Part shown: positions 18,485 through 32,314 of the stretch, piece after piece
Position numbering within the stretch: position 1 is the first letter of the stretch
Layout of the letters: every line of letters begins with the position of its first letter
Source of the DNA: Chloroflexota bacterium
GTDB lineage: Bacteria > Chloroflexota > Dehalococcoidia > DSTF01 > JACRBR01
Assembly: GCA_028872875.1 (NCBI GenBank)
Contig: JAGWOC010000018.1
Location: forward strand, 1 to 47,109
Length of the DNA stretch: 47,109 nt
Reading direction: 5' to 3'
Notes under the pieces: model-generated
What the model was told of the DNA's origin: nothing
The model's input: the letters and a program-made list of their open reading frames with translations, nothing else
Database searches by the model: none
Made by a program: the position numbers and the translations under genes

Positions 18485-20260
18485 CTAGACGGCGCACTCC
18501 CCTTCGCCCATGTCGTCCAGCGTGAAGAGCTTCGTCTGGCCCCAGTCGACGTAGGCCATCGGGTCCTCATTGAACTCTGGGACCGCCTTGTACGCGGCGA
18601 GGATCTCCTGGATGTGCGCCTTGCCCACGCGCTGTGACCACTCCGGCAGCCGCTCGCCGTCGCCCCGCCCGGCGACGTAGGCGCCGATCAGGGTCTCGAA
18701 GGCGTCGGGCACGTAGCGCGCGGGGATCTTCATGATCAGCGTGCCGAGCCGCCCTTCGCCCTGCGGGTTGCCGCCGAGCAGGAGCTGGAACGCCGGGAGC
18801 TGGCGCTCGCCGCTGCGGATCGCCATGCCGTAGAAGCCGATATCGGCGACGTGGTGATGCCCGCACGAGTTGGGGCAGCCGCTGATCTTGATCCTGAGGT
18901 CGTGGATCAGCGGGTCGCGATACCGGCCGTTGGCCGCGCGGATGCGCTCCCGCAGCTCGCTGCCGAGCCCCTTCGACGAGGTGACGCCGATGCCGCACGT
19001 ATCGGCCCCCGGGCACGTCATCACGTCCGAGATGGTGAGCGCGCCGTCTTCGGCCAGGCCGATGTCGGCGAGCGCGCCGTGGACCGCGGGCAGGTCGTCC
19101 TCGTGCACCCAGCGCAGCACGAAGTTCTGCGTCGCCGACGTGCGGATGCGGCCGTTGGCGTACGTGCGGGTGATCTCGGCGAGGGCGTGCATCTGGTCGC
19201 TGGTGACGTCGCCGATCGGCAGCAGGACGTAGACCGTGTACCAGCCCGCCTGCCGTTGCCTGAGCGCGTTGGTGCGCCGCCACGCTTCGAAGCCCTCGCG
19301 CGGGGCGGTGGGGCCGCCGTTCCGCGACGCCCACGAGCCGCCCGCCGGCTCCTCCTCGAGCAGTGTGAAGTCGGGTGCGCGGTAGCGCTCGTCGAAGGCT
19401 GGCGGCAGCGTCGCCAGCTCGTCGAGGTAGAGGCGCCGGAACTCTTCGATGCCGAGGCGGGCGATGAGGAACTTGATGCGCGCCTTGTTCTTGTTGCGCC
19501 TCTCGCCGAGCCGGTCCCAGACGCGGATCACGGCCTCGATGGTGCGGAGCTGCTCCTCGACCGGCACGAACGCCTCGAGCTCGTCGGCGACCCGCGGCGC
19601 CGCGCCGAGGCCGCCGCCCACGAGCACGCGGAACCCCTGGCGTCCGCCCTGCTCGACCGCCATCAGGCCGATGTCGTGGATGGGGAGCATGCCGCGGTCG
19701 GCGGGGCTGGCCGAGTAGCTGATCTTGAACTTGCGCGGCAGCTTCTGGTTGACGGGGTTGCGCAGGAAGTAGCGCATCGCGGCCTCGGCGTAGGGCGTCA
19801 CGTCGAAGACGCAGTCGTCGGCGATGCCGCTGAGCGGGTCGGCGGTGACGTTGCGGACGGTGTTGCCGCAGGCCTCGCGCGTGGTCATGCCGGCTTCGGC
19901 GAGGCGTCGCATGACCTTCGGCGCGTCCTCGAGCATGACGAAGTGGAGCTGGATGGCCTGGCGCGTGGTGACGTGGCCGAGCTTGCGCGGCGCGTAGCGC
20001 TCGGCGCAGTCCGCGACGGCGTGGAGCTGCTCGGGCGTGAGGGTGCCGTGCGGCGCCTTGATGCGCATCATCTGCCGGTCGGCCTGGCGCTGGCCGTAGG
20101 TGCCGTGCTGGAGGCGGAAGGGGCGGAAGTCGTCGCCGAGCCCGCCGCCGGCGCGCCAGGCCAGCGCTTGCCGCTCGAAGTTGTCGATCTCCGCCTGGAC
20201 GACGGGGTCGTGGGACTTGTCCTGTGCGAACTCGGACTTCGTCGGCGCACTGGCGACCAT
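18485..20260 (-). CDS. Ferredoxin-type assimilatory sulfite reductase
   Basis: Six-electron reduction of sulfite to sulfide at a coupled siroheme and 4Fe-4S centre. The 591-residue protein has two ferredoxin-like/siroheme half-domains (HGTYGQRQADRQMMRIKAPH at the first, AGWYTVYVLLPIGDVTSDQM at the second). The cluster cysteines are in TCPGADTCGIG and SGCPNSCGHH. Nitrite reductase of the same family is an alternative, but the sat-cysC-cysH context favours sulfite. The ATG at 20260 is preceded by GGAGGTGG. An ATG at 20314 would add 18 residues that include the promoter region, so I do not use it. First gene of the sulfate operon. Confidence 0.92.
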   Translation of the reverse strand: MVASAPTKSEFAQDKSHDPVVQAEIDNFERQALAWRAGGGLGDDFRPFRLQHGTYGQRQADRQMMRIKAPHGTLTPEQLHAVADCAERYAPRKLGHVTTRQAIQLHFVMLEDAPKVMRRLAEAGMTTREACGNTVRNVTADPLSGIADDCVFDVTPYAEAAMRYFLRNPVNQKLPRKFKISYSASPADRGMLPIHDIGLMAVEQGGRQGFRVLVGGGLGAAPRVADELEAFVPVEEQLRTIEAVIRVWDRLGERRNKNKARIKFLIARLGIEEFRRLYLDELATLPPAFDERYRAPDFTLLEEEPAGGSWASRNGGPTAPREGFEAWRRTNALRQRQAGWYTVYVLLPIGDVTSDQMHALAEITRTYANGRIRTSATQNFVLRWVHEDDLPAVHGALADIGLAEDGALTISDVMTCPGADTCGIGVTSSKGLGSELRERIRAANGRYRDPLIHDLRIKISGCPNSCGHHHVADIGFYGMAIRSGERQLPAFQLLLGGNPQGEGRLGTLIMKIPARYVPDAFETLIGAYVAGRGDGERLPEWSQRVGKAHIQEILAAYKAVPEFNEDPMAYVDWGQTKLFTLDDMGEGECAV

Positions 20261-20285
20261 GGTCCACCTCCGGGTGCTGACCGGA

Positions 20286-20314
20286 TACCTACATAAGTAA
20301 ATCGAGTTAGTCAA
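20286..20314 (-). promoter_or_regulatory. Candidate promoter/operator of the sulfate assimilation operon
   Basis: In a short AT-rich island the minus strand reads TTGACT (20314-20309), 17 bp, TAGGTA. The spacer AACTCGATTTACTTATG has the look of a repressor site, perhaps of an Rrf2-type regulator as in some sulfur regulons. That regulator assignment is a guess. Confidence 0.45.
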
Positions 20315-20550
20315 GATTACCGTCCCGGGCGACGCGCGTCAAGGGCGGACGGCGGCCCAAATCGGGGAGGACGTGGATTCAGGCCGGCCCGGGCGGAGCC
20401 CGGCGGCGGCACTGTCGATGGAGCGCGTTGGGTAGAGGACGCGCGGCCCGTGAGCGATCCCTGCCGGGGGGCGGCACCCTCCGCGGAGGACCCCTCACCG
20501 CACATTCTTAGCGCCGGCACTCCGTCCGCGCCGCCCACGCGCCGACGGCC

Positions 20551-20917
20551 CGATACGATCCTGCCGGAGCGCGGGCCTTCAGCCCGCGCCGCCCACGCGC
20601 CGACGGCCCGATACGCGCCCCGCCGGAGCGCGGCCCTTCCAGTGCCCCGTGTCCAGCCCGCGAGCGCGGTTGTTCGCGGCAGCCGGGGTGCGCCGTCCTA
20701 CCCCGCCCGCGCGGCGACGGCCCGATACGCGCCCGCCGGAGCGCGGGCCTTCAGCCCGCGCCGGTCACGCGCCGACGGCGCGATACGCGCCCGCCGGAGC
20801 GCGGGCCTTCAGCCCGCGCCGCTCACGCGCCGACGGCGCGATACGCGCCCGCCGGAGCGCGGGCCTTCAGCCCGCGCCGGTCACACGCCGACGGCGCGAT
20901 ACGCGCCCGCCGGAGCA
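20551..20917. repeat. 58-bp tandem repeat array (six units)
   Basis: The anchor CGATACG recurs at 20551, 20609, 20723, 20781, 20839 and 20897. Adjacent copies are exactly 58 bp apart, except for a gap filled by a 90-bp repeat. Each unit holds a hairpin, GCGCGGGC-CTTCA-GCCCGCGC. Partial copies occur at 30169-30196 and 32142-32175. The array fills the 724-bp gap between the sulfate operon and dnaA. I see no gene in it. Confidence 0.88.
20631..20720. repeat. 90-bp direct repeat, copy 1
   Basis: Matches 20918-21007 with one visible difference (GGTTGTT against GGCTGTT). The last 23 bp equal the final seven codons and stop of dnaA. It interrupts the 58-bp array. Confidence 0.85.
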
Positions 20918-21007
20918 CGGCCCTTCCAGTGCCCCGTGTCCAGCCCGCGAGCGCGGCTGTTCGCGGCAGCCGGGGTGCGCCGTCCTACCCCGCCCGCGCG
21001 GCGACGG
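20918..21007. repeat. 90-bp direct repeat, copy 2, overlapping the dnaA 3' end
   Basis: Second copy of the 90-bp repeat, starting within the last 58-bp unit and running 23 bp into dnaA so that it includes the dnaA stop codon at 20987-20985. Confidence 0.85.
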
Positions 21008-22358
21008 CTGCCGGCGCGCCCCGCGCCAGCGCCGCCCGCACCGCCGCCAGGTCGGCTCCCGTCTCCGCCCGCGTGCCCAGCTCGGCCGCGATGCGGGCGA
21101 TGCCGCCGAGGACCGTCGAGTGGTCGCGGTGGCCGAAGAGGCGGCCGATCTCGGCGACCGAGCGGTGTCCGTCGTGCTTCAGCACGTACATCGCCAGGTG
21201 GCGCGCGTAGGTGACGTTGCGGCTGCGGCTCTTGCCTTCGAGGTCGCGCGGCTGGGCGCCGATGCGGGCGCACACCGCCTCGACCACCGCCTCCGCGCTG
21301 GCGCCCTGCTGGTCGCGCTCTGGCGCGAGCGGCGACAGCGCCCGTTCGATCGCGGCGGGGGTGACCTCGCCGCCGACGAGCGGCACGTAGGCGATGACGC
21401 GGTTGAGGTATCCCTCGAGCTCGCGCACGCTCGGGCAGCCGCGCGCCGCGATCGTCGCCAGCACGTCATCGCCGAGCCGCAGCGCGTGGCGCCCGGCCTT
21501 CGCGCGCAGGATGGCGAGCCGCGTCTCGAAGCCCGGCGCCTCCATGTCCGCGACCAGCCCGCACTGGAGCCGCGAGCGGAGCCCGTCGCTCAGCCGCAGG
21601 TGCGACGGCGCGCGGTCCGTCGAGACGACGATCTGGCGGCCCGCCGCCTGCAACTCGTTGAACGCGTGGAAGAACTCCTCCTGGAACTTCTCCTTGCCCT
21701 CGAAGAACTGCACGTCGTCGATCAGGAGCAGCTCGGCGCCGCGATAGCGGCCGCGAAAGCCCTCGATCCCCCCCGAGAGCGCGCGCACGTAGTCGTTGCC
21801 GAAGCGCTCCGCCGAGGCGTAGATCACCGACCGCCCCCGCTCGTAGGCCGCGTGGCCGATGGCGTTGAGCAGGTGCGTCTTGCCGAGGCCCGACGCCGCG
21901 AAGATGAGCAGAGGGTTCAGCGCCCCCGGCTCCTCGACCGCCCGCTGCGCCGCCGCCGCCGCCATCCGGTTCTCGTCGCCGACCACGAACGTGGCGAACG
22001 TCTCCAGCGGGTTCAGCACCGGCGGCGCTGCCGCGCGCTTGCGGTACTGCTCCGGGATGGTCTCGTGCGCGGGGTCGAGCAGCGCCGGTGGCGCAGCTTC
22101 GGCCTCGCGCAGCACCTCGAACGTGACGTCGACCTTGCGGCCGAGCACGCGCGCGAGCGTGCGCGCGATCATCGGCTGCAGGCGCATGCTCAGCCATTCG
22201 CGCGCGAAGTCATTGGGCGCGCCGACGACGAAGCCGTCGTGGTCGTGGCGCAGGCCGACCGTGTCGCGCAGCCAGGTGTCGAAGTTGGCGCGCGTCACCT
22301 GGAGTTGGAGCTGCCCGAGCGTGGCGTCCCATGTGGTGGCCGGGGTGTCCATGGTCAT
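20985..22358 (-). CDS. dnaA: Chromosomal replication initiator protein DnaA
   Basis: AAA+ initiator of 457 residues. Domain I starts DATLGQLQLQVTRANFDTWLRDTV. Domain III has Walker A in FAASGLGKTHLL (near 155), Walker B in LLLIDDVQFFEGK and the sensor STDRAPSHLRLSDGLRSRL. Domain IV ends with the DnaA-box binding signature GHRDHSTVLGG. Walker A has ASG where most DnaA proteins have a bulkier GVG-type start. The linker domain II is very short. The ATG at 22358 is preceded by GGAG at 8 nt. The usual neighbours dnaN, recF and gyrB are absent, so this is a solitary or relocated dnaA. The last codons are repeat-derived. Confidence 0.93.
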   Translation of the reverse strand: MTMDTPATTWDATLGQLQLQVTRANFDTWLRDTVGLRHDHDGFVVGAPNDFAREWLSMRLQPMIARTLARVLGRKVDVTFEVLREAEAAPPALLDPAHETIPEQYRKRAAAPPVLNPLETFATFVVGDENRMAAAAAQRAVEEPGALNPLLIFAASGLGKTHLLNAIGHAAYERGRSVIYASAERFGNDYVRALSGGIEGFRGRYRGAELLLIDDVQFFEGKEKFQEEFFHAFNELQAAGRQIVVSTDRAPSHLRLSDGLRSRLQCGLVADMEAPGFETRLAILRAKAGRHALRLGDDVLATIAARGCPSVRELEGYLNRVIAYVPLVGGEVTPAAIERALSPLAPERDQQGASAEAVVEAVCARIGAQPRDLEGKSRSRNVTYARHLAMYVLKHDGHRSVAEIGRLFGHRDHSTVLGGIARIAAELGTRAETGADLAAVRAALARGAPAAVAARAG

Positions 22359-29940: not shown

Positions 29941-30269
29941 CGGTCTCCCCGTCCAGTGCGCCGGCAGCCGCCGCGGGCGGGCAACTGCTTTGGTTGCTAC
30001 GGGCCATATTGTGCCACCCGCTGGGCCCTGGCGCGAATCCCGGCCGGAGACCGCCAACCCGCGCCCACGGGTCGAGCGCTCGCCGGTCCGGGGCGGCCGT
30101 GCCCCGGCCCGCCGGCGTACGCGCGAGGGGCGGCCCGGACGGGCCGTCTCCGGCATTCGGCGCGCAACCCGCGCGGGCTGAAGGCCCGCGATCCGGGTGC
30201 ACGGGTGACGTAGCGTTCGCAGGGGTGGCACCGAACAGCGCCATGATGAACGGGTGACCGGGGCGGTAG
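29941..30269. other. 329-bp intergenic region with repeat remnants
   Basis: GC-rich, no gene seen. Contains an inverted partial copy of the 58-bp repeat at 30169-30196. Confidence 0.5.
30169..30196. repeat. Dispersed copy of the 58-bp unit hairpin
   Basis: GCGCGGGCTGAAGGCCCGCG flanked by ATCCGG, the reverse complement of the hairpin core of the array beside dnaA. Confidence 0.65.
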
Positions 30270-32141: not shown

Positions 32142-32175
32142 CAAGGCCCGCGCTCCGAAGGCCCGTATCGGGCGA
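32142..32175. repeat. Dispersed fragment of the 58-bp unit
   Basis: AAGGCCCGCGCTCCGAAGG followed by CCCGTATCGGGC, the reverse complement of parts of the array unit (hairpin arm and CGATACG anchor). Confidence 0.6.
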
Positions 32176-32314
32176 TCGTCGGGGGGCTCGCGCGGGCCGG
32201 AGAGCCCGCGCTACGAGTGAGCGAGGATCTTCGTTCGCGGGGACGCCGCGTGCGCCCGTTCCCCGGCGGGATCCGCCCTGCTATCCTTTCGTGAGGCATG
32301 GTTCAAAGGTCACG

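Follow-up and report, generated by a model that had tools for sequence, protein, structure and literature searches.

The region downstream of dnaA in this Chloroflexota genome contains a tandem array of REP-type hairpin units in which the 3′ end of dnaA itself is present twice. Our analysis of the window (the whole 47,109-nt stretch of DNA under study) indicated that this arrangement very probably arose from a REP array beside dnaA, of which one segment was duplicated at the short sequence CGACGGC and the second copy was then expanded by two units.

Layout of the array and the second dnaA tail

The dnaA gene is read from the − strand, its stop codon occupies 20985–20987, and its product has all three DnaA domains. 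The array, for which Tandem Repeats Finder (TRF) reported a 58-bp period at 20526–20926, sits between dnaA and a reductase gene, at lower plus-strand coordinates than dnaA. Its hairpin reads GGAG-CGCGGGC-CTTCA-GCCCGCG, and the features of the region are as follows.

18485..20314, − strand: NIR_SIR (nitrite/sulphite reductase-type) gene, downstream of dnaA on the same strand; same neighbour in congener G001
20508..20530, + strand: heavily decayed REP core that keeps the 58-bp register of the following one
20543..20549, + strand: CGACGGC in the spacer of a 58-bp unit, proposed left duplication breakpoint (microhomology)
20550..20721, no strand assigned: duplicate copy 1, 172 bp, with one intact REP, one degenerate REP and the dnaA-tail copy
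20566..20588, + strand: intact REP core GGAGCGCGGGCCTTCAGCCCGCG
20619..20721, − strand: second dnaA 3′ end, 103 bp with 2 mismatches against the native copy; the copied codons and stop occupy 20698–20721
20625..20650, + strand: degenerate REP next to the dnaA-tail copy
20722..21008, no strand assigned: copy 2, 287 bp, with the native dnaA tail and three intact REPs, spacers GGCGCGATACGCGCC
20738..20760, + strand: intact REP core
20796..20818, + strand: intact REP core
20854..20876, + strand: intact REP core
20906..21008, − strand: native dnaA 3′ end, 103 bp (last seven codons, stop and 3′ flank)
20912..20937, + strand: degenerate REP adjoining the native dnaA tail
20985..22358, − strand: dnaA, with DnaA_N, Bac_DnaA and Bac_DnaA_C domains; native C-terminus ...AAVAARAG*
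21002..21008, + strand: CGACGGC inside the dnaA coding end, right duplication breakpoint

The preliminary description of this DNA had reported a repeat array containing a copy of the dnaA end, and both are real: the last seven codons and stop (20985–21008) recur exactly at 20698–20721. Its two 90-bp repeats are indeed two copies spaced by 287 bp, but their actual length is 103 bp. Six cores do follow a 58-bp period, as had been described; however, only four are intact and two are degenerate, with an extra decayed unit at 20508. All unit numbers may be wrong, because the genome was assembled from a metagenome into 234 contigs and several of these break off within REP arrays. Near dnaA, no match to a DnaA box above chance was found within the window. 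An AT-rich island (GTAAATCGAGTTAGTCAAGATTACC, 20290–20320) upstream of the reductase gene is conserved in G001 and looks like a promoter or operator.

Proposed duplication at a microhomology and growth of copy 2

In congener G001, whose DnaA fragment is 95% identical, the dnaA tail occurs only once, and the interval from dnaA to the reductase gene, which is its neighbour there too, holds three 58-bp units. The dnaA end was amplified together with the array in the genome studied here, in agreement with the earlier suggestion that the array had amplified from the dnaA end. The identity at offset 287 runs from 20619 to 20721/21008, where it stops within CGACGGC, a heptamer also present in the unit spacer at 20543–20549; the junction sequences share 10 of 11 bases, these 7 bp included. 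A simple 287-bp tandem duplication was ruled out, since the offset-287 identity is lost to the left of 20619 and copy 1 is 172 bp long. The length of copy 2 equals 172 + 2×58 − 1 bp, so that the two copies differ by two 58-bp units less a 1-bp insertion. Spacer variant GGCGCGATACG occurs only in copy 2, ahead of all its later units, and copy 1 and the junction retain GGCCCGATACG; the derived spacer GGCGCG is restricted to the expanded copy. Among random junctions, microhomology of at least 7 bp was found in 0.2% for the window and in 1.2% for the local sequence, whose GC-richness yields 7 bp fairly easily, which makes CGACGGC moderate evidence for the breakpoint.

The two tail copies differ by 2%, compared with 13% between the two congeners in non-coding DNA next to the reductase gene, and this placed the duplication after the species split, unless gene conversion kept the copies alike. 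The change is recent, as had been proposed. Between the congeners, dnaA itself diverges by 3.5%, with 7 of 102 fourfold sites differing.

Taken together, these observations point to the following course of events. A REP cluster would have been established in the intergenic region after dnaA, its REPs mobilised, at least ancestrally, by RAYT/TnpA-REP transposases, and a REP unit with its own flank would have been reiterated head to tail with a 58-bp period to give a three-unit array, already present in G001. A segment of 171/172 bp, made up of an intact and a degenerate REP together with the final ~103 bp of dnaA, its 3′ flank included, may then have been duplicated in tandem by slippage or illegitimate recombination between the CGACGGC of the spacer and that of the dnaA coding end. 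In the simplest order, a spacer mutation in copy 2 would have come next, after which this dnaA-side copy presumably gained its two additional 58-bp units.

The hairpin unit as a family-specific REP

At one mismatch or less, the core has 69 copies at 39 places in the 3.4-Mb assembly compared to none for a reversed-pattern control, and the repeat is therefore not a chance feature. Fourteen clusters together hold 44 of the 69 copies. Spacer and period are in most cases particular to the array (56–63, 69, 84–87, 146 or 222 bp), and the array loci are mostly intergenic. Among 18 genomes of the order the palindrome is confined to the family of the source genome, where it is present in six of eight genomes (the source genome included). 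Its 5′ tetranucleotide is mostly GGAG in the source genome, a departure that speaks against the REP-based reading; the classical GTAG stands on many copies in G005, and GCAG or GTAG in G007. The unit thus combines a palindromic hairpin of 20–40 nt with many dispersed and mostly intergenic copies; judged by these features, which are hallmarks of REP elements (PMC2817692, PMC3733652), it is a dispersed REP element. It does not form REPIN or BIME units of two inverted REPs, because all 30 neighbouring pairs in the genome stand head to tail.

Elsewhere in the window, a single core copy with GGAT instead of GGAG lies on the − strand at 30172–30194, and a weaker match to the array is found at 32143–32223. 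On contig C179 of the source genome (L090, 430–570), two cores 63 bp apart lie within a long open frame of coding-like composition and are possible intragenic REPs. The 146-bp unit of an array on contig C214 (L085, 567–986) seems to take in the region where the following gene starts, which may be a 5′-end counterpart to the capture of the dnaA tail. No captured gene 3′ end was found in the other REP arrays of the genome that have a callable coding frame.

RAYT transposases in the family

A search for REP-type transposases, suggested in the preliminary description for the genome and extended here to the family, was positive: RAYT genes are present, and in two relatives they are flanked by the REP of the window. 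The RAYT gene of G006 (L218, 1190–1900) has two copies of the palindrome upstream (++) and one inverted copy (−) downstream; that of G007 (L221, 1425–2010), whose product is 50% identical, has the same palindrome with one extra loop base on both sides. These genes and the REP of the window form a candidate cognate REP–RAYT pair. The family members without the REP core, G002 and G003, are likewise without RAYT matches, a joint absence that is only suggestive with eight genomes compared.

The source genome has one complete RAYT gene (contig C128; L046, 1380–1965), which scored 91 bits against NCBIfam NF047646 (cut-off 80) and is flanked by inverted, facing GGACAGGTC hairpins. These belong to a different REP, GTAA-GGACAGGTCTTCAGACCTGTCC, of which the genome has roughly a dozen close copies. 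Four copies of this second REP family form a run on contig C42, spaced about 120 bp apart. The end of contig C230 (L217, 1384–1730) truncates a further RAYT-like gene, which belongs to another subgroup, has an MPNHVHG motif and lacks the REP core upstream. A cognate RAYT was thus not found in the assembly, which holds only the RAYT with other REPs and the contig-end fragment; as the sole complete RAYT carries a different REP, the cognate transposase is lost, absent or unassembled here.

RAYT-catalysed excision and re-ligation, rather than slippage, might instead have built the array and captured the dnaA end. Such growth has been proposed for BIMEs, and there are described cases of REPs enclosing captured rayt 3′ termini (PMC2817692); RAYTs are, moreover, linked to the same REP in relatives. 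However, the junction lies at the microhomology and not at the foot of the REP, with some 16 bp between it and the GGAG tetranucleotide, the neighbours are all head to tail, and the assembly yielded no cognate RAYT. We consider this origin unlikely.

Possible function at dnaA

The proposal that the array may affect 3′ processing of the dnaA mRNA found no support. Single hairpins were correctly labelled as such unit by unit, but no intrinsic terminator with a U-tract was detected in the array, no Rfam family matched it, and the whole transcribed array folded no better than its shuffles (z −0.45). REPs elsewhere have been reported to influence termination and mRNA stability (PMC2817692, PMC3733652), and three lineages of the family have palindromes of REP type after dnaA: the source genome with G001; G005, with a 61-bp array of a different REP; and G007, with one copy. 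On this basis, selection could have maintained the array as an RNA or DNA device for dnaA, either a stabiliser of the mRNA 3′ end or a Rho-dependent terminator before the reductase gene. Nevertheless, G002, G003, G004 and G006 have no such palindromes after dnaA, and neither spacers nor unit number are conserved, so that a device of this kind appears quite improbable and the array probably lacks a function at this gene. For the family at large, it is a very doubtful proposition that the dnaA 3′ end is a recurrent site of REP landing and amplification whose arrays tune transcript stability or read-through, and hence initiator dosage.

In G005 (L045, 1662–1810) a REP-type hairpin, GCGGAGC-TGTA-GCTCCGC, holds the TAG stop of dnaA in its loop region. 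This hairpin opens a row of three tandem units of 61 bp, and the last five codons (VPAEL*) come from the repeat.

Two disfavoured readings: an assembly artefact and a replaced dnaA end

An assembly artefact would have created the tail duplication or the unit number, and the nature of the assembly, with contigs ending in REP arrays and two contig ends of nearly the same array sequence, invites this concern. The tails, however, differ at 2 positions and at an adjacent 1-bp indel and stand in different contexts, for which simple mis-joining is insufficient, and an array occupies this position in G001 too, an independent metagenome-assembled genome (MAG); an artefact is thus highly improbable.

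The preliminary description had also considered that a repeat replaced the original dnaA end, and had named relatives sharing the C-terminus but lacking repeats as the outcome that speaks against it. Comparison of C-termini and unit numbers gave this outcome. DnaA ends with ...PAAAAARAG* in G001, compared to ...PAAVAARAG* here, and with ...AAAAARAG* in congener G002 (77%), which has no repeats there; elsewhere in the family most termini end in ..AG* (AVAG in G003, SQAG in G004, AAAG in G006). The tail sequence occurs twice in the source genome and once in G001, each time at dnaA only, and no copy of it as a dispersed repeat was found beyond the dnaA locus in either genome. Although the array directly adjoins dnaA, and REP-derived ends do arise in the family, as at dnaA of G005, G001 and G002 refute replacement at this locus, and the chance that the native-looking end is repeat-derived is close to nil. 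The C-terminus, shared by congeners with and without repeats, is native. The native tail copy remains joined to dnaA, and the DnaA protein is therefore unchanged.

Significance and comparison with known systems

Duplication of the segment at CGACGGC followed by expansion of copy 2, our preferred reading, makes this locus a clear and datable case of REP array growth, in which a gene end was duplicated at a microhomology before units were added. The states before and after are visible in two congeners, and the analysis ties a family-specific REP to its putative RAYT in Chloroflexota. Because the protein end is unchanged, the consequence for dnaA itself is small. The process is a known one in an unusual place: tandem REP clusters with flanks and the capture of gene 3′ ends by REPs have already been published. 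Two features set the present case apart: it is the end of dnaA that was captured, and the clusters are only head to tail. Our literature search for REPs, tandem duplication and dnaA together found no paper.

The closest likeness is to the GTAG-type REPs, including the GTAG-23 clusters of Thermomicrobium roseum (PMC3733652), with which the present elements share a palindrome of 20–40 bp, an unpaired 5′ tetranucleotide, and dispersed intergenic positions mostly downstream of genes. Both form large clusters in which a unit is repeated tandemly along with its flanking DNA, Chloroflexi being among the published hosts, and the ends of the published elements often supply TAG stops to ORFs; they differ in the tetranucleotide, which is mainly GGAG here (GTAG in G005). 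RAYT/TnpA-REP REPtrons (PMC2817692, PMC6006769) are resembled by the RAYT genes with cognate flanking palindromes in G006 and G007 and by the capture of a gene 3′ end between REPs, although the end is that of the essential dnaA here and of rayt there, and the RAYT of the source genome carries another REP. The tandem REPIN clusters of Pseudomonas fluorescens SBW25 (PMC3116915) likewise consist of nearly identical units with flanking sequence, but each unit there is an inverted REP pair, whereas the present unit has a single REP and the array includes a gene end. Finally, head-to-tail dimers are usually rare in REP clusters, in contrast to the source genome, where clusters are solely of this kind.
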